From Liolophura sinensis (lineage: Eukaryota > Mollusca > Polyplacophora > Chitonida > Chitonidae), in the NCBI RefSeq assembly GCF_032854445.1, contig NC_088302.1, positions 56,274,237 through 56,338,236 on the forward strand: DNA of 64,000 nucleotides, written 5' to 3'. Both the position numbers and the translations under genes were made by a program. Under the pieces are notes generated by a model, which worked only from the letters and a program-made list of their open reading frames with translations, did not search any database and was not told where the DNA came from. Below are positions 25,001 to 61,700 of the stretch, piece after piece (within the stretch, counting starts at the first letter, position 1; every line of letters starts with the position of its first letter).

Positions 25001-28000
25001 GTTCAGATAGGGGTTGCATTACTAGAGATCAGGTTGGGATTGCATTACTAGAGATCAGGTTGGGATTGCATTACTAGAGATCAGGTTTGGATTGCATGAC
25101 TAGAGATTAGGTTGGGATTGCATTACAAGAGATCAGGTTTGGATTGCATGACTAGAGATCAGGTTGGGATTGCATGACTAGAAATCAGGTTATGATTGCA
25201 TTACTAGAGATCAGGTTTGGATTGCATGACTAGAAATCAGGTTATGATTGCATTACTAGAGATCAGGTTTGGATTGCATTACTAGACTTCAGTATTATTA
25301 GGATGAGGATGGTACAGAAGAGTGATTCATGTACTCTTTGATCTTTGGCAGTGACATTTTCACCTGTTAATTTGTTAATACATTACAATATGTGTATAAA
25401 ATAGATACATTATGTCTATATTAAAGGTGCAGGGACTATTGGTTAGGCTTTATATGAAGGTTTTCTCCCTTAAATAACCAGCTTTGTCTTCTCTCCATAC
25501 AATTGTGCATCCATGTGCCTCATGCACATCTTAATGGGGTTCTGGGATAAGCTGGTATTAACATAATGTGGTGATGGTGTTATTTGCATGTGACCTCCTG
25601 ACCTGTGACTGTGCATGATAGGCTGGGTGCTGGCTCTTACCACTGAACCCCAGGCTAAGACAGTCAGCTCTACAACCACCACCATAGACCCAACCACACA
25701 AGGCAAGATTGTTCACCTCAAGTGAGTACATGAATCACAGACCCAACCACACAGGGCAAAATTATTCACCTCAAGTGAGTACATGAACCACAGCCATAGA
25801 GCCAACCACACATGGCAAGATTATTCACCTCAAGTGAGTACATGAACCATAGCCATAGACCCAACCACACAGCACAAGATTATTCCCCACTAGTAAGTAC
25901 ATGAACCACAGCTATAGACCCAACTGCACAGGGCAAGATTATTCACCTCAAGTGAGTACATGAACCACAGACCCAACCACACAGGGCAAAATTATTCACC
26001 TCAAGTGAGTACATGAACCACAGCCATAGACCCAACTGCACAGGGCAAGATTATTCACCTCAAGTGAGTACATGAACCATAGCCATAGATCCAACCACAC
26101 AGGGCAAGATTATTCACCTCAAGTGAGTACATGAACCACAGCTATAGACCCAACCACACAGGGCAAGATTATTCCCCACTGGTGAGTACATGAACTACAG
26201 CCATAGACCCAACCACACAGGGCAAGATTATTCCCCACTAGTGAGCACATGAACCACAGCCATCGACCCAACCACACAGGGCAAGATTATTCCCCACTAG
26301 TGAGTACATGAACCACAAACCCAACCACACAGGGCAAGATTATTCCCCACTGGTGAGTACATGAACCACAGCCATAGACCCAACCACACAGGGCAAGATT
26401 ATTCACCTCAAGTGAGTACATGACCATCACAGACATGACCACACAGGGCAAGATTATTCACCTCAAGTGAGTACATGAACCACAGCCATAGACCCAACCA
26501 CACAGGGCAAGATTATTCCCCACTGGCGAGTACATGAACCACAGCCATAGACCCAACCACACAGGGCAAGATTATTCACCTCAAGTGAGTACATGAACCA
26601 CAGCCATAGACCCAACCACACAGGGCAAGATTATTCGCCTCAAGTGAGTACATGAACCATAGCCATAGATCCAACCACACAGGGCAAGATTATTAACCAC
26701 TAGTGAGTACATGAACCACAGCTATAGATCCAACCACACAGGGCAAGATTATTCCCCACTGGCGAGTACATGACCATCACAGACATGACCACACAGGGCA
26801 AGATTATTCACCTCTAGTGAGTACATGAACCACAGCCATAGACCCAACCACACATGGCAAGATTATTCCCCACTGGTGAGTACATGAACCACAGCCATAG
26901 ACCCAACCACACAGGGCAAGATTATTCACCTCAAGTGAGTACATGAACCATAGCCATAGACCCAACCACACAGGGCAAGATTATTCACCTCAAGTGAGTA
27001 CATGAACCACAGCCATAGACCCAACCACACATGGCAAGATTATTCCCCACTGGCGAGTACATGAACCACAGCCATAGACCCAACCACACAGGGCAAGATT
27101 ATTCACTACAAGTGAGTACATGAACCATAGCCATAGAGCCAACCACACAGGGCAAGATTATTCACCTCAAGTGAGTACATGAACCACAGCCATAGACCCA
27201 ACCACACAGGGCAAGATTATTCACCTCAAGTGAGTACATGAACCATAGCCATAGATCCAACCACACAGGGCAAGATTATTCCCCACTGGCGAGTACATGA
27301 CCATCACAGACATGACCACACAGGGCAAGATTATTCACCTCTAGTGAGTACATGAACCACAGCCATAGACCCAACCACACATGGCAAGATTATTCCCCAC
27401 TGGTGAGTACATGAACCACAGCCATAGACCCAACCACACAGGGCAAGATTATTCACCTCAAGTGAGTACATGAACCATAGCCATAGACCCATCCACACAG
27501 GGCAAGATTATTCACCTCAAGTGAGTACATGAACCACAGCCATAGACCCAACTGCACAGGGCAAGATTATTCACCTCAAGTGAGTACATGAACCATAGCC
27601 ATAGATCCAACCACACAGGGCAAGATTATTCACCTCAAGTGAGTACATGAACCATAGCCATAGATCCAACCACACAGGGCAAGATTATTCACCTCAAGTG
27701 AGTACATGAACCACAGCCATAGATCCAACCACACAGGGCAAGATTATTCCCCACTGGCGAGTACATGACCATCACAGACATGACCACACAGGGCAAGATT
27801 ATTCACCTCTAGTGAGTACATGAACCACAGCCATAGACCCAACCACACATGGCAAGATTATTCCCCACTGGTGAGTACATGAACCACAGCCATAGACCCA
27901 ACCACACAGGGCAAGATTATTCACCTCAAGTGAGTACATGAACCATAGCCATAGACCCAACCACACAGGGCAAGATTATTCACCTCAAGTGAGTACATGA

Positions 28001-31000
28001 ACCACAGCCATAGACCCAACTGCACAGGGCAAGATTATTCACCTCTAGTGAGTACATGAACCACAGCCATAGACCCAACCACACATGGCAAGATTATTCC
28101 CCACTGGTGAGTACATGAACCACAGCCATAGAGCCAACCACACAGGGCAAGATTATTCACCTCAAGTGAGTACATGAACCATAGCCATAGACCCAACCAC
28201 ACAGGGCAAGATTATTCACCTCAAGTGAGTACATGAACCACAGCCATAGACCCAACCACACAGGGCAAGATTATTCACCTCAAGTGAGTACATGAACCAT
28301 AGCCATAGACCCAACCACACAGGGCAAGATTATTCACCTCAAGTGAGTACATGAACCACATCCATAGACCCAACTGCACAGGGCAATATTATTCACCTCA
28401 AGTGAGTACATGAACCACAGCTATAGACCCAACCACACAGCACAAGATTATTCCCCACTGGTGAGTACATGAACCACAGCCATAGACCCAACCACACAGG
28501 GCAAGATTATTCCCCACTGGTGAGTACATGAACCACAAACCCAACCACACAGAGCAAGATTATTCCCCACGGGCGAGTACATGACCATCACAGACATGAC
28601 CACACAGGGCAAGATTATTCACCTCTAGTGAGTACATGAACCACAGCCATAGACCCAACCACACATGGCAAGATTATTCCCCACTGGCGAGTACATGAAC
28701 CACAGCCATAGACCCAACCACACAGGGCAAGATTATTCACCTCAAGTGAGTACATGAACCATAGCCATAGAGCCAACCACACAGGGCAAGATTATTCCCC
28801 ACTAGTGAGTACATGAACCACAGATATAGACCCAACTGCACAGGGCAAGATTATTCACCTCAAGTGAGTACATGAACCACAGCCATAGACCCAACCACAC
28901 AGGGCAAGATTATTCCCCACTAGTGAGTACATGAACCACAGATATAGACCCAACTGCACAGGGCAAGATTATTCCCCACTAGTGAGTACATGAACCACAA
29001 ACCCAACCACACAGGGCAAGATTATTCCCCACTGGCGAGTACATGACCATCACAGACATGACCACACAGGGCAAGATTATTCACCTCTAGTGAGTACATG
29101 AACCACAGCCATAGACCCAACCACACATGGCAAGATTATTCCCCACAGGCGAGTACATGAACCACAGCCATAGACCCAACCACACAGGGCAAGATTATTC
29201 ACCTCAAGTGAGTACATGAACCATAGCCATAGAGCCAACCACACAGGGCAAGATTATTCACTACAAGTGAGTACATGAACCATAGCCATAGACCCAACCA
29301 CACAGGGCAAGATTATTCCCCACTAGTGAGTGCATGACCATCACAGACATGACCACACAGGGCAAGATTATTCCCCACTAGTGAGTACATGAACCACAGC
29401 CATAGGCCCAACCACACAGGGCAAGATTATTCCCCACTAGTGAGTACATGACCATCACAGACATGACCACACAGGGCAAGATTATTCCCCACTGGTGAGT
29501 ACATAAGCATCACAGACATGACCACACAGGGCAAGATTATTCCCCACTAGTGAGTACATGACCATCACAGACATGACCACACAGGGCAAGATTATTCCCC
29601 ACTAGTGAGTACATGACCATCACAGACATGACCACACAGGGCAAGATTATTCCCCACTGGTGAGTACATAAGCATCACAGACATGACCACACAGGGCAAG
29701 ATTATTCCCCACTAGTGAGTACATGACCATCACAGACCCAACCACACAGGGCAAGAGTATTCCCCACTAGTGAGTACATGACCATCACAGACATGACCAC
29801 ACAGGGCAAGAGTATTCACCTCTAGTGAGTACATGTACATGATCATTGCAGACCCAACCACACAGGACAGCTTTTTATACCCTTACCCAGTTGTAGCTTA
29901 TGGGTGTATTATACCCTGGCATGGTGAGATTTGCTGTGATGTTTGTGTGTAGTTGTGGTTGTCACTAGCCTGAATGCCACATGTAGCATGAAAGAATAGC
30001 TGTAGACCTAGGGATACACATATGTGTATGGGTATAAAGAAAACATTTTTCGTCATAACTTTCATATTTTGCATCGTGTAATAAATATAAATTATGATGT
30101 TTACAGAGTTAAATGTACATGTAAGATCCAAAGAAAATGTATATATGTGTATTGTAAAAAAAAGATATGCATTTTCTTCAATATTAGCTTGTTACACATA
30201 AGCAAAGTATTTTGCCGATATCAGAATAATGAACATGTATTTTATTGCTGCCCTGGGTTTTTGAACAGGAATAAAGCATTTCCCTATTCTGTTATTACAA
30301 TATACACGTAGTCTGTAGTTAGGGGCATTCAGTGTTTACCGATGAGTGGTCTTGGGTATAGATGTGAAGTGTTGGTGAATGTTTTGCAGACATGAGTTAG
30401 AAGATTTACAACAAAAGGTGATGAGGGAAAGGGAAAAGTACCAGCACACTGCCCAGACCAAGGGGGCGTTGTCAGCACTTCCCGCGTTTGACATCAACAA
30501 CAAGTTTGTGTTGAATAGAGAGGACGCTAGCTACACGCTGAGTCTGGAGGTACAGATGGCCATAGATAACGTGCTACTACAGGTGAGCAGTGTTGACTGT
30601 GATCGTTTTGACATGTTTGATTCTCAAGAATATTTTTATGGTTGGACAATAACGAGGGTTGTTCGTAACTTGATAAGTCTCTGCTTGTGAGGCTCACACC
30701 ATACCACTGGGAGCTGATGTAACCCAGATACATGTAGTCAAGTGTTGATCATCTGTAGTTAGATCACGTCTTTTCAGATTGCTTTGTGATTTAAAATTGT
30801 ACTGATTACCTGGAGATCTACAGGTTAATGGTTATGGGAATGACAAGTACATGTATGTGAGGTGAGGAGTTTTACATGAAGCTGTTAGTCTACCAGTGTG
30901 GTGACAGATGTCTCAACTGTTTACAGTCAGTGAATTGTTTATGCACATGGTTTACAACTGTGTTCCAGAGTGATGTGCCTATAGACCTGTTGGATGTAGA

Positions 31001-34000
31001 GAAAAACTCTGCAGTGGTCAGCTACAGCGCCTGTAACCCTGAGGTAAGCTAATCATGCCCCTACACTGCCTGTAACCCTGAGGTAAGTTAATCATGCCCC
31101 TACAGCGCCTGTTACCCTAAGGTAAGCTAATCATGCCCCTACACCGTCTGTCACCCTGAGGTAAGCTAATCATGCCCCTACACCGTCTGTCACCCTGAGG
31201 TAAGCTAATCCTGCCCCTACACCGCCTCTAACCTTGAGGTAAGCTGATCCAGCCCCTACACCGCCTGTAACCCTGAGGTAAGCTAATCATGCCCCTACAC
31301 CGCCTGTCACCCTGAGGTAAGCTAATAATGCCCCTACACCACCTGTAACCCTGAGGTAAGCTAATCATGCCCCTACAATGCCTGTCACCCTGAGGTAAGC
31401 TAATCCTGCCCCTACACCGCCTGTCACCCTGAGGTAAGTTAATCCTGCCCCTACACCGCCTGTCACCCTGAGGTAAGCTAATGATGCCCCTACAACACCT
31501 GTAACCCTGAGGTAAGCTAATCATGCCCCTACACCACCTCTAACCCTGATGTAAGCTAATCATGCCCCTACACTGCCTCTAACCCTGAGGTAAGCTAATA
31601 ATGCCCCTACAACGCCTGTCACCCTGAGGTAATCTAATCCTGCGCCAACACCACCTCTAATCCTTAGGTAAGCTAATCCTGCCCCTACACCACCTCTAAC
31701 CCTGAGGTAAGCTAATCCTGCCCCTACACCGCCTGTCACCCGGAGGTAAGCTAATCATGCCCCTACATCACCTCTAACCCTGAGGTAAGCTAATCATGCC
31801 CCTACACCACCTCTAACCCTGAGGTAAGCTAATCATGCCTACACCACCTCTAACCCTAAGGTAAGCTAATCATGCCCCTACACCACCTCTAACCCTGAGG
31901 TAAGCTAATCATGCCCCTACACTGCCTGTCACCCTGAGGTAAGCTAATCCTGCCCCTACACCACCTCTAACCCTGAGGTAAGCTAATCATGCCCCTACAC
32001 CACCTCTAACCCTGAGGTAAGCTAATCATGCCCCTACACCACCTCTAACCCTGAGGTAAGCTAATCATGCCCCTACACCACCTCTAACCCTGAGGTAAGC
32101 TAATCATGCCCCTACACCACCTCTAACCCTGAGGTAAGCTAATCATGCCCCTACAACACCTGTCACCCTGAGGTAAGCTAATCATGCCCCTACACCACCT
32201 CTAACCCTGAGGTAAGCTAATCCTGCCCCTACAACGCCTGTCACCCTAAGGTAAGCTAACCATGCCCCTACACCACCTCTAACCCTGATGTAAGCTAATC
32301 ATGCCCCTACACCACCTCTAACCCTGAGGTAAGCTAATAATGCCCCTACAACGCCTGTCACCCTGAGGTAAGCTAATCATGCCCCTACACTGCCTCTAAC
32401 CCTGAGGTAAGCTAATATAGCCCCTACAACGCCGGTCACCCTAAGGTAAGCTAACCATGCCCCTACACCACCTCTAACCCTGAGGTAAGCTAATCATGCC
32501 CTTACACCACCTCTAACCCTGAGGTAAGCTAATCATGCCCCTACAACGCCTGTCACCCTGAGGTAAGCTAATCCTGCGCCTACACCGCCTGTCATGACAG
32601 ATTGATGGAGATCCCTCAGTTTTGTTGCTCTGCCTATATAAATATGACCCCATCTCAGCACATCAGAGTAAATCCTAACACTTCAGTGTGCTGCATTGCA
32701 GCTCTCATTTACTATCTTTTATGACAGTTAAGAGAAAATTCTAGTCCTCTGATTGGTCAGTAACATTTGAAGGTTTGTGTGGCGATACAAGTGTCAGTTC
32801 AGTAATGTAGTATAATGTTCCTTTCAGGAGGGTAATTTTTTGTTAGCCACCTACCGTTGTCAGGCGAACACCACACGGCTGGAGCTGAAGGTGCGGTCTA
32901 TAGAGGGCCAGTATGGGACACTTCAGGCGTACATCACCCCAAGGGTCCAACCAAAGACGTGCATAGTCAAACAGTACCTGGTTAAACCTCTGTCACTTCA
33001 TCAACGTACACACGTGTTTGATAACTCCAGGTATGCATGTATGCTACCACACAAAGCATGTCAAGGCTAGGCTGAATATAGAAGATCAAGGAAACATTGG
33101 CATATATGTCATAACTGACATATTTTATAGTTTCCCTTTTCTGTTAAAAGAGGCACATGTGAGTATTTTTATTTGGCTGTCAGTATTTTTCTTCACAGTT
33201 CTAATTCAAGAATGAGACTTCTTTTAGACATGTATGTATTGAGGACAACTAAAATGTTTTGCACAGATAAAACTGTGCTTTTGTCTGTGTTAATTTGGTT
33301 TTTTTCTTTATTTGTGTAGACCACTGAACACTCTGAAGTTGACTGGCCAGTTCAGTTTAGCTGAAGTCCACTCCTGGGTATCTTTTTGCCTGCCTGAATT
33401 ACCAGAGAGAGCTCCAGCAGGGGAGACAATCACATTTCATTTTCTGTCAACTTTCCTGGATACCCAGTTGGAATGCACTTACAGGTGAGAAATTGACATT
33501 TTTGGTCAAGAAGGGATGATGTGTGGATATTTGTAGATCCTACTAATACACTACTTAAATCTTAATTGTTGCATTTCTTAGAAAATGAGTAATAAATAAT
33601 TTCCAGTTTTTACGTACAGAATAAAGCCAAAAGCAGACATATGTAGATTATTAGAAAATTGATTTTGTCTATTCTCAAAACAAAAAAGATCAAGTTGTAC
33701 TTTGAGAGTGGCTTCACTTAGGTACAGATACATGTATATGATGTACCATTTGTGATACTCACAGGCTGTGTTATGCATGACTGAAGGTGGATTTTCCCTC
33801 TCTTCATCTTGTTAAACTCACACGTATGTTTACAGAAAAGGTGAGGCTGTTTTTAGATCTGACAACATTTCAACAATCTCTATACTCAAAGATGTACTGA
33901 CCAAGGAGGCCACCAAGAAGAAGATTCGCCTTGATATTACGTATGGTAAGTTTGTGAAGATTTTACATATTGACATTGGCATTATAATAATATCCTCGTT

Positions 34001-36483
34001 TGATGTCTTCATAATTTGTAGATAACATATTGTCTTGTTCTTCCCACACCAGACATCGATGAGAACTCCATCCCTCACACACTGAGTCTGATCCACCCTA
34101 AGCTGGAGTACCAGCTGTTACTGGCCAAGAAAGTCCAGCTAATAGATGGCCTCAGGGTAGGTATAATGTACAGTCACAGGGACTACGGAGGGTAACACAG
34201 TCCCAGACACTACAGACTATAATACAGTCCCAGAGACTACAGAGTATAATACATGGTTCCACAGACTACAGAGTATAACACACAGTCCCAGAGACTACAG
34301 AGTATAACACACTGTTCCAGAGACAACAGAGTATAACACACAGTCCCAGAGACTACAGAGTATAACACACTGTTCCAGAGACAACAGAGTATAACACAGT
34401 CCCAGAGACTACAGAGTATAACACACAGTCTCAGAGACTACAGAGTATAACACACAGCCCCAGAGACTACAGAGTATAACACATGGTTCCACAGACTACA
34501 GAGTATAACACACAGTCCCAGAGACTACAGATTATAACACACTGTTCCAGAGACAACAGAGTATAACACACAGTCCCAGAGACTACAGAGTATAACACAC
34601 GGTTCCAGAGTATAACACACAGTCCCAGAGACTACAGAGTATAACACACAGTCTCAGAGACTACAGAGTATAACACACAGTCTCAGAGACAGACTACAGA
34701 ATATAACACTCGGTTCCAGGGTATAACACACAGTCCCAGAGACTACAGAGTATAACACACAGTCCCAGAGACTACAGAGTATAATACACAGTCTCAGAGA
34801 CTACAGAATATAACACACGGTTCCAGAGTATAACACACAGTCCCAGAGACCACAGAGTATAACACACAGTCTCAGAGACTACACAGTATAACACACAGTC
34901 CCAGAGACTACACAGTATAACACACAGTCCCAGAGACTACAGAGTATAATACACAGTCTCAGAGACCACAGAGTATAACACACAGTCCCAGAGACTACAC
35001 AGTATAACACACAGTCCCAGAGACTACACAGTATAACACACAGTCCCAGAGACTACATTAAAATATGAAGCGCAGGAGATGTGGGTTCAATTCCCTGGCT
35101 TTAACAGAGTTTTTCTCTGCTCTTATTGTTCGTTGTGCCTTTCTGATAGCACTTTGAATCGGTTATGGGGATAACTTGTCCACATATATGGCTTACAAGA
35201 CTGTAATGTAACACCCAGATAAATTCATCACTGACTTGTGAAGGTCAGTGTCATTAGGTTTCCTCAATCCATAATACTGACTGCCATCGTATCAGTGAAA
35301 ATTGTTTCAGCATGTTACCAAACAAAAATCAAACAAATCAGTGTACACATGTATTTGTACAGATGTGTGTCTATTAAAAGACAATGCATGTCTGTATCTA
35401 GGGGAGATAACCATGTTTCATTGACTGACTTCTAACTGAGTGTGTGTTGTACCTGACCAGGAGATGCAGGTCCATGAGAGTGACCTAAGCTTTATGTCAC
35501 CTGAATACAGACAAATCCTGGACAATGCTGAGGCTCTGCAGATAGAGTTCAAACAACAGCCCTGTCACCTTGAGAGGCTCTACGGTATCCTTTTTCACCC
35601 CTGGGCTCTTCATACAGTGGCTGAGTCGTTCTGTGAAGTAGCTATATGTATGCACTAGGGCAGTTATTTGGTATTTAAATGGCAGGGATGAGAATTTCGG
35701 CTGATGAATTGATTTCAGGTGAGAAATCTTGACTTTCAAACTGCCTAATCTTTCACAATGATGGCCACAACTAATCATTTACTAATGGGAGTCAGTTAGT
35801 GGTAGAAGAAAGTTTACTGATTTTAAAGGAGAAAATTCTCTTTCCAGAAGAACTGTGCCTATGTGTCTGAAGGTTCTAGTCCTAGATTTTTTAATAGTCA
35901 TACTCCTGAAGTATCTGAGTCTAGCTTAGTGTTATGAAATTCATGGGTTTGTAGTACACAAAGGTTAGTGCCTACATTTGTAACTTGGTGAGTTTCACCC
36001 AATTTAGCTTTTCAATCATTTGTTTGCCGCCAAGCATTTACCTGTACATTGATGATTGTCTCTTTGCATAGGCTATTCCAAAGTAATGTGTTCTTCAAAG
36101 CGGTGATAGCAATATTGCCTATGTATGTTGCTATGGTGGTTATAATCAATGAACCTTGCCATCGCTTTCTGAACGTGGGCTTCGGATGGTCTATTACTCA
36201 AAATCAGTAAATTTTATCCAGTCACCAAGCGAACACAAACAAAAGTAGAGTCAACGTAATAACACTTGAGGAGAAAAACTTTGATGTTTATGGTCAGCAT
36301 AAGAATGTACAGCTTCTGTAATTGATTTACCTTAACGCCTGCTCAGGTATGATCACAGATCTCTTCATTGACAAGTTCAAGTTCAAAGGTCAGAATGTCA
36401 AAGGGAAAGTACCGGCTCTTTTGGAGATTCTGGACAACTATGATCTCACAAATCTCATCACGTTTTTCCAGACAGCTTCATGA
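10061..36483 (+). CDS. BBS7: Bardet-Biedl syndrome 7 protein homologue (BBSome subunit), 19 exons
   Basis: BBS7 is a BBSome subunit that carries membrane cargo in cilia. Exons: 10061-10095, 12243-12302, 15356-15418, 15726-15901, 17688-17874, 19039-19111, 19460-19526, 20322-20371, 21201-21331, 23551-23635, 25622-25721, 30390-30582, 30969-31043, 32828-33030, 33320-33484, 33836-33945, 34053-34156, 35461-35584, 36347-36483. Exons 2-19 join in phase through GT-AG sites and give 700 residues (human BBS7 is 715). Signatures include [35 protein letters not shown] (N-terminal beta-propeller), [15 protein letters not shown] (coiled coil), [35 protein letters not shown] and [20 protein letters not shown]. 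Exon 1 reads MEMNLS, then needs one extra base (near 10076-10079) to continue RVDYVQ, so the start is frameshifted here. Introns 4, 5, 10, 11, 13 and 17 hold long tandem arrays. Confidence 0.95.
11100..12230. other. BBS7 intron 1, nothing specific recognised
   Basis: The 2.1-kb intron (10096-12242) is AT-rich with short poly-T/poly-A stretches. No repeat unit, SINE or nested exon is recognised. Confidence 0.5.
12619..13486. mobile_element. Non-autonomous DNA transposon, hAT-like, in BBS7 intron 2
   Basis: The left end is CAGGGTTCGCACGG, followed by phrases of the type CCTTGAAAGTACGG and GTGCTTGAATTTGACC. The right end mirrors these (CTTGAAAGTACTTGAAAAGT, then GGCGTACGAACTCAG). Inner end sequences GTTCGCACG and CGTACGAAC are inverted with one change. 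Flanks GCTGTTAG (left) and GCGTGTTAG (right) resemble an 8-bp target duplication, as for hAT elements. No transposase frame is seen. Confidence 0.55.
14395..14650 (+). repeat. Dispersed repeat, copy 1 (BBS7 intron 2)
   Basis: It contains GACAGGCGGCCAACCTATGG, GGTTACCTGCAG, GTGGTGTCATTTAAA and AGCTCAAATCCGTTGACATC. The same phrases appear in reverse complement at 44580-44828. It is an interspersed repeat of unknown class. The 114-codon frame at 14190-14534 overlaps it and is not considered a gene. Confidence 0.6.
16131..17480 (+). repeat. 75-bp minisatellite, 18 copies (BBS7 intron 4)
   Basis: A highly uniform 75-bp unit is repeated 18 times. Because 75 is a multiple of three, a 468-codon frame stays open on the plus strand (unit reads [10 protein letters not shown] then [15 protein letters not shown]) and shorter frames open on the minus strand. 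The array starts 230 bp after the exon 4 donor and ends 207 bp before the exon 5 acceptor. It does not resemble either exon. I treat the frame as non-coding, since flanking exons 4 and 5 join in phase without it. Confidence 0.9.
17594..17716 (+). repeat. 47-bp triplication of the exon 5 acceptor (BBS7)
   Basis: Three head-to-tail copies of exactly 47-bp spacing begin at 17594, 17641 and 17688. Each starts like exon 5 (GTGGG.G...TGCTGA.CT) and the first two run through a pyrimidine stretch to TTTTTCAG or TTTTCAG. The third copy is the true exon 5 start. The acceptor ending at 17640 would add 47 nt and shift the frame, so the 17687 acceptor is the one that preserves BBS7. Confidence 0.85.
18317..19025 (+). 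repeat. 52-bp minisatellite, ~13 copies (BBS7 intron 5)
   Basis: The unit includes CCCAGATTGTATTGATCTAA, ACCTGTCAGTCATCC and TTAGACATGTGACACTA, with exact 52-bp spacing between successive CCCAGATT phrases. It runs up to the exon 6 acceptor: the last decayed unit (TTACCCAGGGTTGTTCATTC) leads directly into CGCAG at 19038. Confidence 0.9.
19938..20272 (+). mobile_element. tRNA-derived SINE, family B, full length
   Basis: The head GGCCCTGATAGCACAGTTGG, TTGAGCATCCGCTTCGGGAG and a box-B-like AGATCCAGAGTCAATCC are tRNA-like. The body includes GCTTGGCATTCAGCATGAAG and the tail AAGTACGATGTTAAACCCC, followed by CACT repeats. An opposite-strand copy lies at 39848-40202. It is unrelated in sequence to family A. 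Confidence 0.75.
20560..20872 (+). mobile_element. SINE family B relative (BBS7 intron 8)
   Basis: It shares the family B layout: GATTGGCACTCAGTAATGAA, then a body ending in CATGTGACTGAAAAG, TTCAGTACGATATTAAACCC and a CATA run. The middle differs (GTGTCATGTCTGGTGTCTTC), matching in reverse the sequence near 42545-42600, so it is a subfamily. Confidence 0.6.
21340..23150. other. BBS7 intron 9, mostly unique sequence
   Basis: AT-rich intron with no gene or long array. Repeats in it are the SINE fragments listed next to it. Confidence 0.5.
23160..23278 (+). mobile_element. SINE family A, 3' half
   Basis: It contains CCAGCAACCTGCAGATG, CCACCATACTGCTGGCCGTC, TATAAGTGAATTATTCATGA and GTACAGCATAAAACACCAAT, followed by an AAAT run. 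Confidence 0.7.
23350..23512 (+). mobile_element. SINE family A, middle portion
   Basis: It contains GGAGCTTCTCACCAATGCGG, CATCTCATGCTGGCTTTCTC and CCAACCATAATGCTGGCCAC. The 5' head and the tail are missing. It sits about 40 bp before the exon 10 acceptor of BBS7. Confidence 0.65.
24660..25295 (+). repeat. ~26-bp tandem repeat in two blocks (BBS7 intron 10)
   Basis: Block 1 (about 24660-24890) repeats GAGTTCAGATAGGGATTGCA. Block 2 (about 25000-25295) repeats GAGATCAGGTTGGGATTGCA plus TTACTA. Both are variants of one unit split by a SINE fragment at 24893-24998. Confidence 0.8.
24893..24998 (-). mobile_element. SINE family A fragment within the 26-bp array
   Basis: The reverse complement of the family A 3' part is present: ATGTTTTACGAGGTACTCAA, CACGATGGTGGCCAGACG and TTGCTGGCAGACCTTCCCAC. 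It interrupts the tandem array, so it inserted after the array existed. Confidence 0.65.
25722..29855 (+). repeat. 59-bp minisatellite carrying the exon 11 donor, ~70 copies (BBS7 intron 11)
   Basis: The unit (59 bp, with 53- and 55-bp variants) reads CATAGACCCAACCACACAGG, GCAAGATTATTCACCTCAAG, then TGAGTACATGAACCACAGC. It copies the last ~40 bp of exon 11 (ATAGACCCAACCACACAAGG ... CACCTCAA) plus its donor GTGAGT. The first copy is the exon itself. Most copies keep GTGAGT; one subset has GCGAGT and has lost the GT. Variant units (CCATCACAGACATGACC) recur in groups, showing higher-order structure. Confidence 0.95.
29860..30380. other. Unique part of BBS7 intron 11
   Basis: About 0.5 kb of non-repetitive AT-rich sequence between the array and the exon 12 acceptor. 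No nested gene is seen. Confidence 0.5.
31020..32600 (+). repeat. 39-bp minisatellite carrying the exon 13 donor, ~40 copies (BBS7 intron 13)
   Basis: The unit is CTACACCGCCTGTAACCCTG, AGGTAAGCTAATCATGCCC, 39 bp by spacing. It copies the exon 13 3' end (TACAGCGCCTGTAACCCTGAG) plus donor GTAAGC and the first intron bases. The exon is copy zero. Nearly every unit keeps GAG/GTAAGC. Read in the exon frame, every unit contains a TAA stop. Confidence 0.95.
34157..35055 (+). repeat. 29-bp minisatellite starting at the exon 17 donor, ~30 copies (BBS7 intron 17)
   Basis: The unit is TATAACACACAGTCCCAGAG plus ACTACAGAG. The array begins within about six bases of the exon 17 donor: GTAGGTATAATGTACAGTCA is already a diverged unit. 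Exon end CTCAGG may correspond to unit CTACAGAG, but this is too short to be sure that the exon tail is part of the unit. The rest of the intron to 35460 is unique. Confidence 0.9.
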
Positions 36484-37120: not shown

Positions 37121-37124
37121 ATCC

Positions 37125-38670: not shown

Positions 38671-38676
38671 CCTGGA

Positions 38677-39538: not shown

Positions 39539-42500
39539 TTAAAAGTTGAGATACTTCTTAGCGATGTTAGCTTTGATATCAATGCCTGCATAAGATGCCA
39601 GTAGTGTGTTCACAATGCCTGCCAAAGACAGCACCAGGAACACCTGAAGGGCCAGCACAGATTTCTTAAAAGCACCAAGTCTGAAAAAAAAAGAATTAAT
39701 AACGAAGTTACACAACTGCATGAGGCAATTCTTTAAGTCAAAATATAGAGTGATGCTGTCTGTACCAGTCAACTCCAGGTATGAAAAAGTTTGTGCATGC
39801 ATGTAGTCATTTGGGGATAGGGGTGTGTGTGGAGGGTGGGGGGGGGGGGAGTGAGAGAGTGCTCAGGGTTTAACGTTGTACAGCACAATTTTTCAGTCAT
39901 ATGACGACAAAGGAGTGCATGTACATGTAACCTGCCTCCTTGTTGCAGGACAGATTTCCACCTCTCTTTTATCTAGTGCTGCTTCACTGAGATGACTTAG
40001 CATAGGCAAGTAAGGCACCCCACCCGAGCCATTATATTGATATGGGTCAACCAGACGTTGGACTCTCCCCTTAATGCTGAATGCCAAACAAGGAAGCTAC
40101 AACTTCCTCTTTTAAGGTCTTAGGTGTGTGACCCAACCAAGGATTGACCCTGGATCTACTGCTCCCTGAAGCGGACGATCTAGCAACTAAGCCATCAGGG
40201 TCAGAAAAGGGGGGTTAGGGGCAGGCATCGGGGGAGTTGCTCACCTCTTTTCAGTGGCCTCTGCATAACCGTTAAAATACTCCTCTCTCGCATAAATGTA
40301 AAAGAGACCAACTAAAGCAGCCACAACTGAAAAATAAAAAAATAATGATTATCAGTTTTACGTCAATCCACAGTTGATTCATCAATTTATTTGAGTGCTC
40401 ATCTGGATGATTGCAACTACACTGACAATAGTGCTTAATGCATCAACTGAAAATATTTACTTACTTAATTTATCATAGTTTTATGCTGTCCTCAAGAATA
40501 TTTCACTTACATCTTATACAACCTGGGACTAAGGTAAGTCTGTTATCTTTATGGTCCAGCACAGGCCAGCGTTATGGTGGGAGGAAACCCACGACCATCA
40601 GCAGGTTGCTGGAAAACCTTGCCAAGTGCGACCAGAGAGGAAGCCAGCATGAGCTGGACTTAAACTCGCAGTGAGCGTATTGGAGAGAGGCTCCTGGGCC
40701 TTTGTGCTCCGCTAGCACGCTAAACCACTAGGCCAGAGAGGCCCCCAGAGTCTGAAAATAATACATGTATAAGCAACACTTTTACATAATTGTGATGTGG
40801 TGACCCTTTTGAGGTTTGAACCCATGGCATTTGGGACAATAGTCTGTGACTTTGTAACTTCATGACTTTGATAGGATACAGAAATAATTAGTATCAATTC
40901 CACCATATATTTCCGTATGATATCACTGAATGACCACGTAACAGAAAACCCATCAATGACTGATGCTGTCCAATTAAAGCAGATAATTTTGTCTGCTATG
41001 GGATAATAGCCAGTACACTGCTATAACATATATTCATATAGTCTTCGTATATGTACAGGTAGTAAGAAAAGTGAATGACATCACAGGGACTATCTCAAGC
41101 AACACAAGCTGCATTAAGCTCCAAAACTAAACTTCAAGCACTAAATCAAAACGAAATCCTCATCAGCCAGGTTGCAGAGAGCCCATACCCTCTGCCTTGT
41201 TTATACACAAACTATTACCATGTACATGTTTACATGTGGTATGCATTTATCACCTGTGTTCACTAAGTCTGATTACCAGAATATTCTGTATCACAAAGTG
41301 TTCCAGTCATGCCTTAATTGAGAAATAGCCCTCACACCCACAGGTAGTGTTCACTAAGTCTGATTACCAGAATATTCTGTATCACAAAATGTTCTAGTCA
41401 CACCTTAATTGAGAAATAGCCCACACACCCACAGGTAGTGTTCACTAAGTGTGATTACCAGACTATTCTGTATCACAAAACGTTCTAGTCAAACCTTAAC
41501 TGAGAAATAGCCCACACACCCACAGGTAGTGTTGAGTAAGTTTGATTACCAGAATATTCTGTATCACAAAACGTTCTAGTCACACCTTAATTGAGAAATA
41601 GCCCACACACCCACAGGTAGTGTTCACTAAGTGTGATTACCAGACTATTCTGTATCACAAAACGTTCTAGTCACACCTTAATTGAGAAATAGCCCACACA
41701 CCCACAGGTAGTGTTCACTAAGTGTGATTACCAGACTATTCTGTACCACAAAACGTTCTAGTCACACCTTAATTGAGAAATAGCCCACACACCCACAGGT
41801 AGTGTTCACTAAGTGTGATTACCAGAATAGTCTGTATCACAAAACGTTCTAGTCACACCTTAACTGAGAAATAGCCCACACACCCACAGGTAGTGTTCAC
41901 TAAGTGTGATTACCAGACTATTCTGTATCACAAAACGTTCTAGTCACACCTTAACTGAGAAATAGCCCACACACCCACAGGTAGTGTTCACTAAGTGTGA
42001 TTACCAGACTATTCTGTATCACAAAGCGTTCTAGTCACACCTTAATTGAGAAATAGCCCACACACCCACAGGTAATGTTGAGTAAGTTTGATTACCAGAC
42101 TATTCTGTATCACAAAGCGTTCTAGTCACACCTTAATTGAGAAATAGCCCACAAACCCACAGGTAGTGTTGAGTAAGTTTGATTACCAGAATATTCTGTA
42201 TGACAAAACTTTCTAGTCACTCCTTAATTGAGAAATAGCCCACACACCCACAGGTAGTGTTGAGTAAGTTTGATTACCAGACTATTCTGTATCACAAAGC
42301 GTTCTAGTCATACCTTGATTGAAAAATAGCCCAGACACCCACAGGCACACCAGAAACACTGGGAAGAACTCTAAAGTGTTTTGTCTGCAAAATAAACACA
42401 CGATTCAGAAGTAAGTAGAGTATGTAGGCCTATGCCTGACGTTTTATGTCGCACTTAACAATTTAGGAAGTATCGGTACATTGGGTACATGTACATATAC

Positions 42501-48564: not shown

Positions 48565-49762
48565 TCAGTAGCTGCCGCTTTTGAATGGCCCGTAGCCACC
48601 TCTCGCCTTACAGTCGCAGGTCGAAGACCAGAACTCACACCTCTTCTTGTAGTCGTCCCAGCAGAGGTAGGCGGGACAGGGCCTGTAGTCGTAAGTCAGT
48701 CCCGCTACACAGCTCACGTAGAAGTTACAGCCACTACAAGACTGGTAGTCACCGTCGGGCACGTAGGCACAGTGCTTAAGACACCCACCGCTACCTCCGG
48801 GCTTCTGGCTCGGTCCAGGGTACCTGGGATGAGGAGCGGGCTGAACGTGATCCTGTTCAGGGTAACTGGGACCGGGTTGGGGGTAAATAGGACCGGGTAG
48901 TGGGTGTACAGGACCGTAATGGGTGTATACGGGACTGGGCTGTGGGTGTAAGGGACCGGGCTGTGGGTGTACCGGACCGGGTTTTAGGTATACCGGACGG
49001 GACTGTGGGTGTATCGGGCCGGGTTTTGGGTGTACTGGACCGGGTTTTGGGTATACCGGACCGGGCTGTGGGTGTATCGGGCCGGGTTTTGGGTGTACCG
49101 GACCCCGCTGTGAATACTTGTGTTGGACGGGGACCAGGGGTTGGTATTTAGGCTGAGGATTAGCTGGGTATGGGTGAGGGGGAGGTTGACGTTGCGAGGC
49201 AAGCTTGGGGGCAAGAGGAGCTGGCTGTGGGTAATACCAAGGCATGGCTGAAAAGAAAGTAATAATATTAGCACAATAAATACGCGAAAGGCACAACTTA
49301 TTTATTTCATTGCTGTCTAATGCTCTTCTCCAGAAGTTTTATTGCTTCCACGATTGGTGACAAAACTTTGGATGGAACCAGAATATCCGAAGAAAACCAC
49401 CGACCTTGCGATCGAGAAACGAGAAGACATCGAGCTAATTAGTAAAACTTCAATCAAAGGTGCCGAATAAAATGTGAGATTAACTTTACTGGTGTTTTTG
49501 GTTCATTAGTGACATTATAATGTATAATGACTATCACTTGCGGAAACCTGACAGTCTGGGAACACCAGCTCGTGGCCGGTATCTGAGCATGGCAGCTCTC
49601 CTGGCACACAGATAACATACGTAGGCCTCCACATTCCAGCTGGTCACCTCATTGTAAACTGCTACAGGTGTAGGCCTATATTTAAACGCTTATTAAAAAT
49701 AAACGTAATCCTGGCCGTCGTCGTATAAGTGAAATACCTGAGCACTGCTTAAAACACCAAAA

Positions 49763-49813
<51 letters not shown>

Positions 49814-50436: not shown

Positions 50437-50499
50437 ACAGTTTTTGCTTGCTTTTCAAAAAATCGTTAAATTGATTATGTGTAAGCATGTAATACTGTC

Positions 50500-52400: not shown

Positions 52401-52418
52401 CCATACCAATCCGCCATC

Positions 52419-53369: not shown

Positions 53370-53466
<97 letters not shown>

Positions 53467-55740
53467 GTCCCTTCAGTTGTGGCAATAGACATTCACAATC
53501 GAACAATTTAGTTTTAGGAATATACATTCACAATTAGCTGGCTTCAGCCAGATGCAGGGGCAGCTCCTTTGGCTTCAGCCAGTTGCATGGACAGCTTGGC
53601 TTCAGCCAATGCAGAGGCATTCCTGTTAGTTTGAGCCAGATAATATACAAACACAGTTCCTTTGGTTTCAGCCAGATGCAAAGGCATTCCTGATAGTATT
53701 AGCCAGATAATATACATCCACAGTCCCTTGGCTTTAGACAGATGCAAAGGCATTCCTGGTAGTGTTAGTAGTTTTAGTGAGGTAATATACATACACAGTT
53801 CCTTTGGCTTCAGCCAGATGCAAACACACTGGATTCCCTAGAGCTTCAGCCAAATGCATACGAAGTTCCTTTGGTTTCAGGCAGATTCAGAGGCATTCTA
53901 TGTGTTAGAATGCAATAATGCTGCAAGACCAGATATGTATACGCCTTATACAGGACCCTTTGATATATTGTGATATGCAATGAAACTATCCCTCTTGTCG
54001 TACAGTCTGCGATAGAAGAGATCGTTTTCGTCTTTGAACAAATATAGGTACTGATTTACCACCTGGAGAGCCTGTGGAGTCAGCTTTCACAGCTTTTGGT
54101 TTAAATGAATTCTTTAAAACTAGCAGATCATCAATATACGCCTGTCGATGAGTGTATGAGAATGGGAACCTCTCTCCCAAATCGAGCGGAATTACACTGG
54201 AAATACACGAACACTCCACATGGTCCAGGACAATCAGGTATTCCGTACTCTTGCAGTGAAGCGACTGACACTTGGTGTAAATGCTACGAACATTGTACAG
54301 TATATTTAGCCGAAAACCACCTTACTTATGTAAACTTTATTTCAGCACTTATGTGGTTTTGGTTCCGAAGGTCATACGCCCTGGTCTACCACTTAACGTC
54401 AGTGTCAACGTTCTGCATGCGTCAGGCGATGTCCACATCGAGGCTAAAGTGACATCAGACAACGGCAACTCCACGGTAGCTCATAGTTCGGCCATTGTCC
54501 GCAAGGGGGAGCCGTTAAACATCAAACTGGAGGTATGTTGGGCTAATATTTGAGTTTCAGTTAATCTACTTTAGTAATTAGTGCCTGGTATTTTTGGCAA
54601 AGTTTACTAAACTTTGAATAGAAGCCCTTGATAGTAAAATCTAGTAAAAAGTTCCAGCAAAGCGATATGACCTTTTATTGAAATCGTCGAGCTAAGTACA
54701 CTGTCTAGCATATGCAACTGGGCGAGTCATTTATATCCCATATGCTGGGTTTTGCCATCCATAAATGGAACAATATCGAAATTAAAGCCATCTCTCTTGT
54801 CATATAATCGACGCGAGAGGAGGCAATGGTCGTTTTTATAAATATACAAATCCATATAAAACGTGCTATCTACGGAATGGGTACACTGTTACGGTATAAT
54901 TGGTAACGTTTAACATGTTTACTTAAGGTGAGTTTATTTTATTAAATACACGTGTTTGTCTCATAAATACATGGATTTATTTTATAAATACATGGAGTAT
55001 TTTACAAACACACTGTACTTACATTTATTGCATAAATGCAATCATTAATGTAGTAAATTGGATGGGTTTATTGCTTAAACGGAGTAATTTAAAGTTTTCA
55101 GTGTACATGATCAACATTATAAGGCGGTCTTATTATCATTTGCTGGATAAACATGTTTAAGTATGTTACAATTAAACATTAGGCACTTTTATCATCAGTT
55201 GTGGGATAAGCATTTTAAGTATGTTACGATTAAACACTAAGCACGTTGATTTTTCATTTGTTTTTTCAGTGTAGTTTGTCCAGTGAACTGGGATACACTT
55301 CCTTCACTGCTTCGTGTATTTAGAGATTATGTACAACCAGAAGATTGTCCATATAAGGTGTGGTGATTGTAAATGAGCGGAATTTCATGAAGTTGATCAC
55401 ATATTCTGCCTTCAGTCGTATACATACAGAGCAGCGTACTTAGATTCCAGTGTGATACCTGTGCTGTGGATAAATCGCGCTGCCACATTTCACAAATACA
55501 CAAATTGATCATAAATTTGAGTAGTTCTACAAACCGTGCAAAACTCCAAGAATAGTAACCTGATACTGACTTGTGTGTTCTGACAATTATGAAACCAAAT
55601 CAATCAGTTTACCGAGGCACTGAATTAAGTGATGTAGAGGAATGCTGCGGATGGTCGTGAGTTTCCCCCAGGCTCTGCTGAATTTCCTACCAAAATTTAA
55701 GTGAAATGTTTTTTGAGTTAGGCACAAAGCTGCAATAAAA

Positions 55741-55771
<31 letters not shown>

Positions 55772-58700
55772 GGTAAATAAATGATGAGGGATGGTATTAT
55801 AAAGAGTTGAGAAGTCCCCTGTGGATGTGTGTTTACACTTCATTTGAGCTGTCAAATCTCATTGATCGGTCAATGTTTAGTATCCACAAGTATTGTCCAT
55901 TGGAGGTTTTTAGAGAAACTGAAGAACATCTTTCTCCCAATCTTTTATTTTCCAATAGATCTTTTGCTAACAACGTGGAGAAGAGTGCACCCGGCAGCCT
56001 GTATTTGTATGATGTTTCCTACATAATGGGTATTCTGCATATTTTTGGCAAAATTTCATTATCGATTCTAAGCGAAATACCCCTTTCCTTGAGAAAGATT
56101 TCGTGATATTAAGTTCGGAAACACAACAGCATGTACATGTACGTAATTAAAGAGAAAATGAACAATGTATATCTTATACCCAACCACATTTCCATGAACA
56201 GTGAAAACTTATTTTCAGCGAAACATGCCCCGTGTGGTGTGAATCCGGCTTACATACCAAGACACACCACTGTCACGTAGGACTGGAATGTTTTAATTTT
56301 GACGTGTCTGCATCGTGTATGACATGTAGAAAGTCATTCCTGGCTGATTTGTTTGTTAAATGAACCATGTCTGATGGATAAATATTTCTATGTTTGAACA
56401 CGACTTACAGATTCCTCAAGGTCTTTCTGTCGGCCATTACAAGGTGACCGTACAAGGGTCGGGAGGTGCAAGCTTCAACAGCCAGGCGGCCATCAGCTAC
56501 AAGCAGAAGAGTCTGTCTGTGTTTGTACAGACAGATAAGGCCGTCTATAAACCATCACAGACAGGTACGCACGGGTCGGCCAGCAGATTATGCCTGTATA
56601 CTTCTTGTCCCATAATGAAAAACATAATGAAGAAAAAAAACCGTTAGTGTCAGGACCTGAGTATACAGATTCTGATCCCGTGGAAGTTTGTAAACAACCA
56701 ATCAAAATAAATAATGTGTTTATTAATCAAGATAAAAGTTTCTAAACTCAAATTATTGCAAATTCGCCTGCTTTATATCACAATAAAGCTGAACTAATTA
56801 AAGTCTAAACATTGTTACATCCTTTGGAGCAAAGTGTCTTAACAATTCCTAACAAAACTATAATGTATAGGACTGTATAGTAATACCTTTCCTGTATTTG
56901 TCAGTACAATTCCGGGCCTTAGCCGTACACCCGGATCTCCGGCCTTACACCGGTTCCCTGGACATTGAAATCTTTGTGAGTAAACTTTATATACCCACAT
57001 CACGTAGCTAAACATTGTTTTACAATGTAAATGTGATCACTGTCATATTTTCCCTCGTAAGTGATTTCATCTGGGTGGTTAAACACAGACAGTAAGTATT
57101 AAAGGAAGAATTAGTTCGTAGGCAGTTTGATACAAGTGTCCTGGGTTCGAAGCAGTCGATCAGTAGTGCTATTAATCTCTTTGGCTTTCTGGGATTTGTC
57201 ATTTAAGTACGAGTAACCTAAATGTAAGATGTAAGTATTACCGTGTACTGTTATTTACCTGATAACACATGTATGTTGCAGGACCCCAAAGGTAACAAGA
57301 TCAAGCAATGGATGAATGTGAAAGACACTAAAGGTGTGGTGGAAAACAAACTGGCTCTGTCTGAACAGCCTGTCCTGGGCGACTGGAAGATCAAAGTCAC
57401 TGTCCAGGTAAAACCCTACTTAGTTACAGACCTACAAATCGACGTTCATGGCCAAAGAAAAGGTAACTGACATACCTGGACATCGAGAACGCGTTATCGA
57501 GCGATGAACATTGCATAACATCGGAACATCATCCCATCAGTGTTACCTCCATCAGTGGAGAACGTGTTATCGAGTGATCGATTTCAAAATAAGCTAAAAC
57601 GTGTTGTTTTATAACAGAATTTAGTGATAAGTCTTTTCGTCATTGCTTTTTCCAGGGCCAGACAGAGGAGAAAGTTTTCACAGTGGATGAGTACGGTAAA
57701 TACACAAACAATGATTACGGAATTGCCCCACTTTAACAAAGTACCTTTCTTAGAGTAAACTATCCTTTTATAACGATATTTGCTCAGCTTTCTCAGCTTC
57801 CGACAAAGGGATGATAAAAGCTCTCCCTCGTCTTTCATCAACTGTCTCACTTGTGGAAAGCATCCGCTATGGTATAAGGTTGTCTGTAAACTGGAAAGTG
57901 TGTGGATGTTATCATGCTTGCTAGACACAGATATAAAAGAAATAATACAAATACCCAGAAATGTAATCCTTCGCTCAGGATTAGCTAATGTTTAGGAGAC
58001 GATGCACAAACCTTGCACACATAACATTGTATTTCAGTTTGCAGCATACACTGGTAAAGTGTATAAATATATGATTTTATAAAACATGACGTGTCCAGGC
58101 TATGTAGGTGCTCGCGAACCCACACAAGAAACTAAACTCACCTGGATTTCATCAAACTGTTCCAAAGACATTTTTGTGGACATCTACCCCAGTTCTTGTC
58201 CTGGTAAAGATGAAATATATAGGATTAAATTTGACGAAACACTTGAAAGTGTTTATACATGATTAGGAATTAACAGGTAGATAGTTGAGCAACTCAAACT
58301 TTTCCGTCTCTGCAACTCGTAATTAACATTCAAGTCCAGATAAAATACTGTTCATATCCTGCAATTTTGCAGAGCTAATGAGGGACGAACGGGTTTGCAG
58401 CGCTAATGAGGGACGAACATTTTGGATTGTTTTAAAATGAACAGACAATGTCATGCAGTATTCCCAGTTGATATACAGCTGCACTCGACTGGGTGGGGCG
58501 GCTGTCAATGGTATCAGTTTTTGTAGTAGGCCATTTTACCACAGGTTAATATCTGAAAACCTACTCCATCTCATTTACCTCAGTTTTACCGAAGTTTGAA
58601 GTAACCGTCAAGTTACCTTCCTATGCTTTGACCAGAGACAAGCGATTGTCAGGAACTGTGAAAGCCATGTGAGTTACTCGCTACGTAATAGTGCATTTCT

Positions 58701-61700
58701 TGGATTTCCGGGGCAGTGTTTTTACTCAAAACTCAATGTAAAATATTGGCTCATATAATTAATAAATAGCGTGCATTTTTTCTGTATATGAGATCTACCA
58801 AAAACACTTGTGTTGAGAAAAAATATGTTGAGTTGTAAACTTCACAACAACAACCAAAATTTCGATTCAATTTCTTTGTCATAAAAATATCATAAATATT
58901 TTCAAGATAAAATATCTAATAATAATAAAATATCTAATTTCACTACCGAGTTATGTGTGATCAGACACAAATTATTACGTTGTCTAAGCTGCTTTGGTAG
59001 GATGGAATCTCTTTCTGCTCTTTGTCATCCCTGTAGGTATACCTACGGCAAACCAGTCAAAGGGACAGCTAATATCAGCCTGAAATTCAAAAACTCTAAA
59101 GCTGGCTTAAACACAATTACCCAGACGCTACAGGTAATTATAAAACTTTTTTCAAGCAAAAGTCTGTTGAGACATTGAAATCATGTTATGTACGAGACTT
59201 TTTGTGTTTAATCTTTCTTTTTCCGTGTTTCAGCTTAATGCGATATGTTTCTTAACTTTACATTGCAGTTGAACCTCGATATTGGAAACAAATGCGCAAG
59301 AAATTTTAAATTTGTTTTTAGATTCTGGTTGAGTGCTTCTTTCTCTTGCCTCGGCCCATCACAAGTTCATGTATTTCGTAAAGCTTGCATTTTTAAATGG
59401 ACATTTAACAAAGAATGTCCTCTGATGTCTCTTCAGCTGGAAGAAGGTGAGAAGGCTTTTACTGTAGCCTTTTCGCAGTTGACGTCGCTCACCCCAAACA
59501 CTCTGGATGGGGCTGTGGTTGTAGCCGAGGCGAATGTCACAGAGACGCTGACGGGCGTCACCCTTAACGGCTCCTCCTCCGTGACGTATCACCAACACGC
59601 CACCAAGCTGGATTTTAGCAGCTCCAATCCCAAAAACTTCAAACCAGGCCTGAAATACACCGCCTACGTAAGTCAATAATCTTTGCTAACATATGTAGGA
59701 GGAAGATAACATTGCTGACGCAAGTCATTGGGATATAACTTTGCTCACCTAAGTGAGTAGCAGATAACTTTGTTAGCATAAGGCAGTAGGAGAAAACTTT
59801 TTAGCATAAGTCCGTGGGAGACAACTTTGCTAAAATAAGTCAATAGGAGATAACTTTGCTAACGTAGATCAATGGGAGATAACTTTGCTGACGTTAGTCA
59901 ATGGGAGATAACTTTGCTAATACAAGTCAGCAGGGGGATAACTTTGCTAACGTAAGTCACCGGGAGATAACTTTGCTAACATAAGTCCTTGGGGGATTAT
60001 GTTCCATTATGTTTGCTCAGTGAGGATGGGTGTACTACATGTATATCGTTTCGTCGATGTGATCTGACGCTGAGTTGATGTAGTAACTGTTATCTAGATC
60101 TGTCTGAATAAACTCAGTTGGATATAGGAATATGTTCTAATATATGTAGTCTTACTGGATTAACTGATCCACTGCTCCCTAGTTGTGATGTTCACACGGA
60201 ATTACCGTCAGCCGAACTAGCCTATTCACGTGCCCTGTCCACAGAAGAGTAGTAGTGATACATTAGAACCCCCAACGGTAAATGGTATGTGATTACTTAT
60301 AACCCATGGAGAAGCAACAACCAGCGGCAGTTGGCATGTGGTTACTTATAACCCATGGAGTAGCACCAACCAGAGGCAGTTGGTATCTGGCCAAGCATAA
60401 CCCATAGAGAAGCAACAACCAGCGGCAGTTGGCATGTGGTTACTTATAACCCATGGAGTAGCACCAACCAGAGGCGGTTGGTATCTGGCCAAGCATAACC
60501 CATGGAGTAGCAACAACCAGCGGTAATTGGTATCAGGGTACTCATAACTCATGAAGCCGCGACAACCAGCGGTAGTTGGTATCTGACCACTCATAACCCA
60601 TGATGCAGAGACAACCGGCGGTATTTGGTATCTGACCACTCATAACCCATGAGGCAGAGACAACCACCGGAAGTTGGTATCTGGCCACGCATAGCCCATG
60701 AAGCAGCGACAACCACCAAAAGTTGGTATCTGGCCACTCATAACCCATGAAGTAGCAAGAACCTGTGGTAATGGTAGTTTGGGTCCAAACTATGTAGTCT
60801 ACACATTACTGGCGAATTATGCCATTGTTGATGGTTTAGAATTAATGGCGTCTTATCAGAATAAGATGCTAAAAATATTTGAATTTTCCACTTTGCTCAA
60901 TATCAGAGCACAATTACGAAGAAACAAACGTCACACTATCATATGTACGTGAACACGTAATACAGAGTCTCATTAACCTACGGTCAACAAAATTTTTTTC
61001 TATAATTGCAGCTCAGAGTATCTCAGCAAGATGGTCGCCCTATCGTCGGACCGAGAAGCTCGGTTACCACTTCCGCTGTGGTGACCAATGAGAAACCTAA
61101 CACCGTTTCCATTTTCCATTACCCAGTGTTCTCTACTCACAGTCTTCAAACCCAGACTTTCACAGTGCCAGAAAATGGTCTGGTGCCTATCGAGATAGAT
61201 ATACCCACAGACAATTACACCACCAAAATAGCCATCAAGGTATGCCAACTCTTCTCTTGGAATAACAACCGATCTATGTTACCACTGTAAAAAAATTGAC
61301 AGTTTATAAAGCATTGAAATTTAAACTGCACTGCACTTAAATTAATGAACATAATAACTGTTCTGTAAAAGATTAGCGTGTTAATACAAATAAAATAATT
61401 AAGTGAACAAATACCATTTTCCCAAACAGTGGCCATCGATGTTTACAAGTCATATTAAGTAGGAATGTATCGAAAAGCTGGGATATATAATTCGCTTCTC
61501 CGTGGTTTATCTATTTGAACAGAAAAGCGCTATTCGTAAGAAATGCACTGCAATCGCTTCACTTTTCTGTATTCTCAGGCTAAGTACCCGGATGCAGATG
61601 ACGTCACACTGAACATCGACCGCATGCATTCTCCAAGCAACAGTTATATGCAGATCATTCTGAAGTCAGACAAGCTGCAGGTAAAGGCTAAACAGACTTG

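Follow-up and report, generated by a model that had tools for sequence, protein, structure and literature searches.

Genes and border arrays of the window

The window considered here, a stretch of 64,000 nucleotides of the chiton Liolophura sinensis (Polyplacophora), lies on contig C8 (NC_088302.1, positions 56,274,237 to 56,338,236) of an assembly of 609 Mb in 632 contigs. Its introns carry long minisatellites, some of which copy an exon-intron border together with the splice site. The genes concerned lie on both strands, as a first, sequence-only reading of this DNA had stated, and are BBS7 (10058-36480, plus strand, modelled with 19 exons), MGST2 of the MAPEG family (44148 to 39539, minus strand, 5 exons) and a TEP-like gene on the plus strand, which starts at about 52.4 kb and continues past the window end.

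The best database matches of a rough BBS7 protein, obtained by joining predicted exons, were from molluscs (Mytilus, Haliotis); together with the exact match of the MGST2 protein to Liolophura sinensis, this rejects amphioxus as the source of the DNA. The BBS7 model (700 amino acids, exons 2-19) aligned over 100% of its length to the Haliotis protein, at 76%, and is collinear with its homologues; no Liolophura BBS7 protein was among the 120 matches listed in either BBS7 protein search. Exon 1 (10058-10095) shows a 1-nt frameshift relative to the homologues, possibly an assembly error. The five joined MGST2 exons are identical, letter for letter, to the protein P0121, 'microsomal glutathione S-transferase 2-like [Liolophura sinensis]'. 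The TEP-like model consists of ab initio exons that yield A2M-family domains when joined; exons upstream of 58584 are approximate, and the number of its intron 9 is therefore that of the sequence-only reading.

Tandem arrays were called with Tandem Repeats Finder (TRF; 41 rows in the window), and copying of borders was assessed by Smith-Waterman (SW) comparison of each border with the intron it belongs to, with 100 shuffles as reference, for 30 introns (30 donors and 30 acceptors). According to this analysis, tandem copies of exon-intron border segments, in up to 72 units, are a real structure beside the real splice site. TRF and the gene models agree with the sequence-only reading on four arrays of 59, 39, 91 and 29 bp and on their places and genes. 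The largest (25674..29835) comprises 72 units of 59 bp in BBS7 intron 11, each made of 48 nt of exon tail and 11 nt of intron, with the last 48 nt of exon 11 (25622..25721, donor CAA|GTGAGT) as the exon copy. In BBS7 intron 13, 40 units of 39 bp (31022..32592; 22 nt exon and 17 nt intron) start from the last 22 nt of exon 13 (30969..31043, donor GAG|GTAAGC). On the minus strand, 12 units of 91 bp in MGST2 intron 3 (41256..42345; 32 nt exon and 59 nt intron) start from the last 32 nt of exon 3 (42314..42384, donor AAG|GTATGA). These three donors are clearly copied in their own introns, the SW scores being 85 (best shuffle 25), 85 (24) and 80 (28).

The TEP-like gene is a borderline case of a border-spanning array. 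About 11 units of 29 bp (59668..59987; about 0 nt exon and 29 nt intron) abut the donor TAC|GTAAGT of the exon at 59437..59667, including at most some 4 nt of exon by eye, while TRF places the start 8 nt past the donor. Similarity of the donor at 59667 to its own intron was modest (SW 28, best shuffle 22). The description of the unit as exon tail, donor and intron start holds clearly for the two BBS7 arrays and MGST2, and weakly for the TEP-like gene with almost no exon in its unit; the claim that arrays start exactly at an exon 3' end has to be corrected, since the exon portion at the start measures 48, 22 and 32 nt in three of them. A possible fifth case, BBS7 intron 17, is not borne out: its array (34170..35057, 29 bp in about 32 copies) begins 13 nt past the donor at 34157, and the donor shows no copy above chance in its own intron (SW 23, best shuffle 23).

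Acceptors are copied as well. At the border of BBS7 intron 4 and exon 5, a repeat of 47 bp spans the acceptor (17590..17725, plus strand), with about three copies by eye and 1.9 according to TRF (17625-17716). It was the sole clear acceptor among the 30 tested (SW 51, best shuffle 25). The exon head WVDGAELFT and its acceptor are present about three times in intron 4, and only the last copy contributes to the conserved protein.

Each array is confined to one intron of the gene models, and no new intron was found between duplicated AG|GT sites. When eight units of the window were compared, the most similar pair scored only 1 point above the best of 60 shuffles. The units of different arrays in the window are unrelated, which, within the window, speaks against a single spreading repeat or transposon and bears out the earlier view of separate local duplications.

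Not every array touches a border. The better-defined gene parts of the window contain 12 arrays, eight of which lie away from donors (seven when BBS7 intron 17 is counted neither way). The BBS7 intron 5 array (18347..19006, plus strand, 52 bp in 12.7 copies) stops 32 nt short of the acceptor and contains no exon sequence, and the BBS7 intron 4 array (16125..17477, plus strand, 75 bp in 18 copies) lies away from junctions and served as a comparison case. Around the latter, at 16077-17489, one frame is open for 470 codons, the unit being a multiple of three. Outside the three genes, a proline-rich protein frame with a 21/63-bp repeat lies on the minus strand at 48565-49338 and has a weak match to the chitin-binding family PF01607 (E 0.063, below the cut-off). 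Minus-strand exons at 4520-5363 resemble, by eye, what we take to be a 5-formyltetrahydrofolate cyclo-ligase gene.

Decoy splice sites

Splice sites were scored with position matrices for vertebrate sites, so that a stronger site is one closer to the vertebrate consensus. Across the four donor arrays, the extra units retain GT in 113/131 cases and equal or exceed the score of the true donor in 85/131, in line with the many decoy donors noted earlier. In BBS7 intron 11, GT is present in 63/72 units, giving 62 decoys with GT, and 41/71 decoys match or surpass the true donor in strength. The corresponding counts are 40/40 and 35/39 in BBS7 intron 13, 10/12 and 8/11 in MGST2 intron 3, and 4/11 and 1/10 in the TEP-like gene. 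Among the acceptor decoys, the one of BBS7 intron 4 at 17641 scores 6.1 against 4.6 at the true site 17688, and its use would shift the frame.

Units carry individual substitutions, with mean identities to the consensus of 0.83 to 0.97 in the four arrays. The donor 9-mer is not consistently conserved among the copies, as 30/59 (BBS7 intron 11), 9/39 (BBS7 intron 13), 46/91 (MGST2) and 17/29 (TEP-like gene) unit windows are less variable than it. Selection on the decoys was rejected, the 9-mer being mid-rank in three arrays and low in variability only in BBS7 intron 13.

Reading through the true donor leads to an in-frame stop after 1 nt (BBS7 intron 11), 6 nt (BBS7 intron 13), 29 nt (MGST2 intron 3) and 9 nt (TEP-like gene), and the use of a decoy should therefore give a truncated frame. 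Since the joined MGST2 exons equal P0121, the annotation places the splice at the first donor in the 91-bp array. As judged from the gene models, the site that fits the conserved protein appears to be the exon-side one in every case, for donors and acceptors alike. Exon definition would favour the exon-proximal splice site.

Occurrence elsewhere in the genome

Twenty random 10-kb regions were sampled from contigs C4, C8 and C13. They contained 58 arrays totalling 23,224 nt, that is, 11.6% of 200 kb or 12.2% of 190 kb when region L012 (N throughout) is left out, compared with an array share of 22% in the window. One of these regions, L010, holds a gene with a match to PF04130 (gamma tubulin complex, E 5.9e-25) and border arrays of both types on different exons (2998-3724 and 6483-7240), a recurrence in the same genome that supports the sequence-only reading. 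Border arrays are present in four genes, three from the window region and one from a random region. The L010 donor array (SW 74, best shuffle 22) is accompanied by an acceptor array (SW 73, best shuffle 26) of 43 bp in 17.4 copies, whose unit joins 29 nt of intron end to 14 nt of exon start. Nine upstream copies were recognized by an exact anchor; AG is kept in 8/9, and the nearest four score 5.4, equal to the true acceptor. The same gene has a 53-bp repeat in two copies, 20 nt ahead of another acceptor.

Further arrays were seen close to donors. Directly right of the window, in a later intron of the TEP-like gene, an array of 73 bp in 26 copies (L025, 6888-8775) starts 22 nt past the donor. 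Three arrays in sampled regions, L015 1-920, L014 982-2456 and L011 414-686, start 12, 51 and 51 nt past donors predicted with ab initio exons. At the MAPEG paralogue loci L001, L002 and L004, arrays of a period of at least 15 lie clear of the matched stretch; a 24-bp repeat in 1.9 copies lies within the matched stretch in L003 and a 14-bp repeat in two copies just before it in L002.

Array units in general resemble donors only slightly more than expected. In 36 random arrays (unit at least 20, at least 2.5 copies), the best donor score of the unit had a mean percentile of 0.60 (standard error 0.05), with at least 5 bits in 3 arrays against 1.7 expected; in 19 window arrays, the mean percentile was 0.56 (standard error 0.07), with at least 5 bits in 1 against 0.9 expected. 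This excess is weak, so strong donors in units are a minority.

Placement of arrays relative to splice sites

With seeds placed uniformly in introns, the 4/12 arrays at donors correspond to P = 0.004 and the 5/12 at any border to P = 0.009. Adding the approximate upstream introns of the TEP-like gene gave 4/17 arrays at donors (P = 0.013) and P = 0.035 for any border.

Whole arrays were then placed at random in 500 trials covering 69 exons and 50 arrays. Donors were spanned by 4 arrays where 1.08 were expected (13/500 trials reach this number), and 10 had an array edge within 60 nt where 2.36 were expected (0/500). For random loci alone, 2 arrays lay at -60 to +10 of either border against 0.68 expected (73/500).

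A second null placed arrays inside gene spans in 1000 trials, for window genes plus flank and for random loci separately. In window genes plus flank, 3 arrays span a donor against 1.16 expected (88/1000), 6 lie at -60 to +25 nt against 1.65 (4/1000) and 6 within 60 nt against 2.30 (18/1000); the acceptor counts, 1 to 2, were not above expectation. When seeds were collapsed, the donor values were P = 0.054, P = 0.001 and P = 0.016 for these three definitions. Random loci alone gave 4 donors within 60 nt against 0.56 expected (0/1000), 2 at -60 to +25 nt against 0.39 (60/1000) and 1 spanned against 0.27 (239/1000), with 2 acceptors within 60 nt against 0.56 (102/1000).

These values refer to a window that was chosen because of the pattern and to 25 sample exons kept by eye from 48 ab initio exons (39 + 9) once their junction scores were known. 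The other 23, which were dropped, look to us like transposons, array-coded frames, overlaps with the opposite strand or calls that lack support, and junction hits occurred among them in L009 (two), L017, L028 and L029 (two). The retained L015 exon likewise has an acceptor hit (32 against 25), matched by no array edge in the 69-exon test. We regard the donor bias in array starts as suggestive, while strictly donor-spanning arrays are only modestly enriched. The enrichment check at donors that the sequence-only reading had proposed, carried out on the window and the random regions, thus supports an excess of edges within 60 nt and only modestly one of spanning arrays.

Origin and persistence of the border arrays

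We posit that these are minisatellites of the mirage type known from amphioxus (see below). They probably arise and grow in the ordinary way, and exon borders probably tolerate them owing to the use of the exon-proximal splice site. In a minisatellite-rich genome, a local tandem duplication would sometimes straddle an exon-intron border, and the duplicated border could then expand by slippage or unequal exchange. It would persist if the gene splices at the exon side, that is, at the first donor or the last acceptor, by exon definition. Decoy-spliced transcripts would hit a stop or a frameshift almost at once and would presumably be destroyed, and this decay may be the reason for the tolerance. 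We count the abundance of minisatellites, the unrelated units, the involvement of both borders, the undegraded decoys, the early stops past the true donors, the first donor used in the MGST2 annotation, the full-length alignment of the BBS7 model to Haliotis and the normal splicing reported for amphioxus in favour of this explanation.

The distribution of array edges speaks against it. Under tolerance alone, donors and acceptors should be affected to a similar degree, yet edges crowd donors: among the 69 exons, 8 arrays lie at -60 to +25 nt of a donor where 1.66 were expected (0/500). The counts for acceptors were 2, 3 and 4 (spanning, -60 to +25 nt, within 60 nt) against 1.18, 1.76 and 2.46, with no significant excess (150, 122 and 109 of 500 trials reach them). 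A direct comparison of the ten donors with the four acceptors likewise gives no significant difference (one-sided binomial 0.09).

A birth process targeted to donors, in which U1 binding, pausing, R-loops or nucleosome edges raise local tandem duplication at 5' splice sites, would account for this crowding, and it seems unlikely to us, if worth keeping in view. The edges within 60 nt of donors (10 against 2.36) and their recurrence in random loci (4 against 0.56) fit such a process, as does the non-significant acceptor count (4 against 2.46). However, the enrichment of donor-spanning arrays is mild (4 against 1.08 overall, 3 against 1.16 in the window and 1 against 0.27 in random loci), acceptor arrays exist, and the sample exons were picked by eye after the junction scan. 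The sense-strand GC skew of the four arrays (-0.29, -0.33, +0.24 and +0.27) has no common sign, which gives no support to an R-loop orientation, and hairpin-driven slippage is not supported either, because five single units fold no better than shuffles (z -0.43 to +0.90). Mixed skew and the lack of a hairpin tendency leave the R-loop idea, raised in the sequence-only reading, without sequence support. Its wider proposal of a process that duplicates exon-donor junctions fits the excess of edges near donors, but a donor-only process is not supported, as acceptors are copied too. In the boldest form of this idea, tandem duplication in chiton genomes would favour the first intron bases, with edges piling up within about 60 nt of donors and decoy runs in a sizeable share of introns, and together with amphioxus this would make splice-site duplication a recurrent, genome-wide mutational class of animals coupled to transcription or U1 binding. 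We consider this a speculative and rather improbable extension.

Chance alone, with the richness in minisatellites putting some array starts at donors by accident, is in our view quite improbable. It draws on the large share of arrays in random DNA (about 12%) and in the window (22%), on the 8/12 arrays off donors and on the weak donor excess in units (percentile 0.60 random, 0.56 window). Against it, P ranges from 0.001 to 0.09 for window genes, depending on the definition, and the trend within 60 nt recurs in random loci.

Functional decoys, for instance U1 sites that shield a long intron from premature polyadenylation or boost the true donor, might explain the 62 decoys with GT in BBS7 intron 11, but the donor 9-mer is somewhat low in variability only in BBS7 intron 13 and the TEP-like copies mostly lack GT (kept in 4/11 units), which makes this explanation very improbable. 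Equally remote is an assembly artefact: copy numbers of long arrays are hard to assemble and BBS7 exon 1 has its frameshift, whereas unit-specific substitutions, the recurrence at several places and the amphioxus counterparts argue for genuine arrays.

Each of these arrays amounts to a natural experiment on how a splice site is chosen, offering many near-identical and equally strong sites of which one is apparently used. The rule that the exon-proximal site wins is therefore directly testable by RNA sequencing. The arrays may also supply material from which exons are extended and introns altered.

Comparison with known systems

No report of border-spanning minisatellites in molluscs or chitons was found in the open-licence literature, as far as the accessible portions go, and the consulted passages of the chiton genome paper on repeat, intron, tandem and Liolophura do not describe such arrays (PMC12005716). 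Minisatellites of the first intron of earthworm metallothionein genes are likewise intronic, their units ranging from tens to hundreds of bases; inclusion of an exon edge or of a splice site is not mentioned in the passages available to us (PMC12783039). Intron gain by tandem duplication of AG|GT sites, a model discussed in part of PMC3087553, also involves a tandem duplication that copies splice signals, but the chiton copies sit inside an existing intron.

The closest counterparts have a name, contrary to the sequence-only reading, which knew of no named class: the structure is that of the amphioxus "mirages", minisatellites across exon-intron borders. In the sections consulted, they are described from Adh3 and the globin genes BflGb6 and BflGb9 (PMC3087553), and from PGBD5 with 60- and 108-bp repeats, with troponin C cited as a further case (PMC3902484). 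They occur at 5' and 3' borders alike and are unstable in length, and splicing reportedly proceeds normally (PMC3087553; PMC3902484). From their structural features, the chiton arrays appear to be of the same kind, in donor and acceptor forms. Repeats span three donors and one acceptor in the window and one donor and one acceptor in the L010 gene; both border types occur, the splice signal survives in many units without being universal, and units differ from site to site. As far as the amphioxus descriptions could be compared, units there likewise combine exon edge, splice site and intron edge at 5' and 3' borders, many keep AG/GT, and the ranges of unit length overlap with those of the chiton (10-72 bp for Adh3 and 60-160 bp in the other cases). 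The chiton differs in belonging to another phylum, in a host genome of which minisatellites make up about 12% of the random DNA sampled, and in arrays that are far longer, with 72 and 40 units compared with 3 and 6 in the BflGb6 haplotypes. A little-cited curiosity of amphioxus is thus extended to a distant phylum, and at a large scale.

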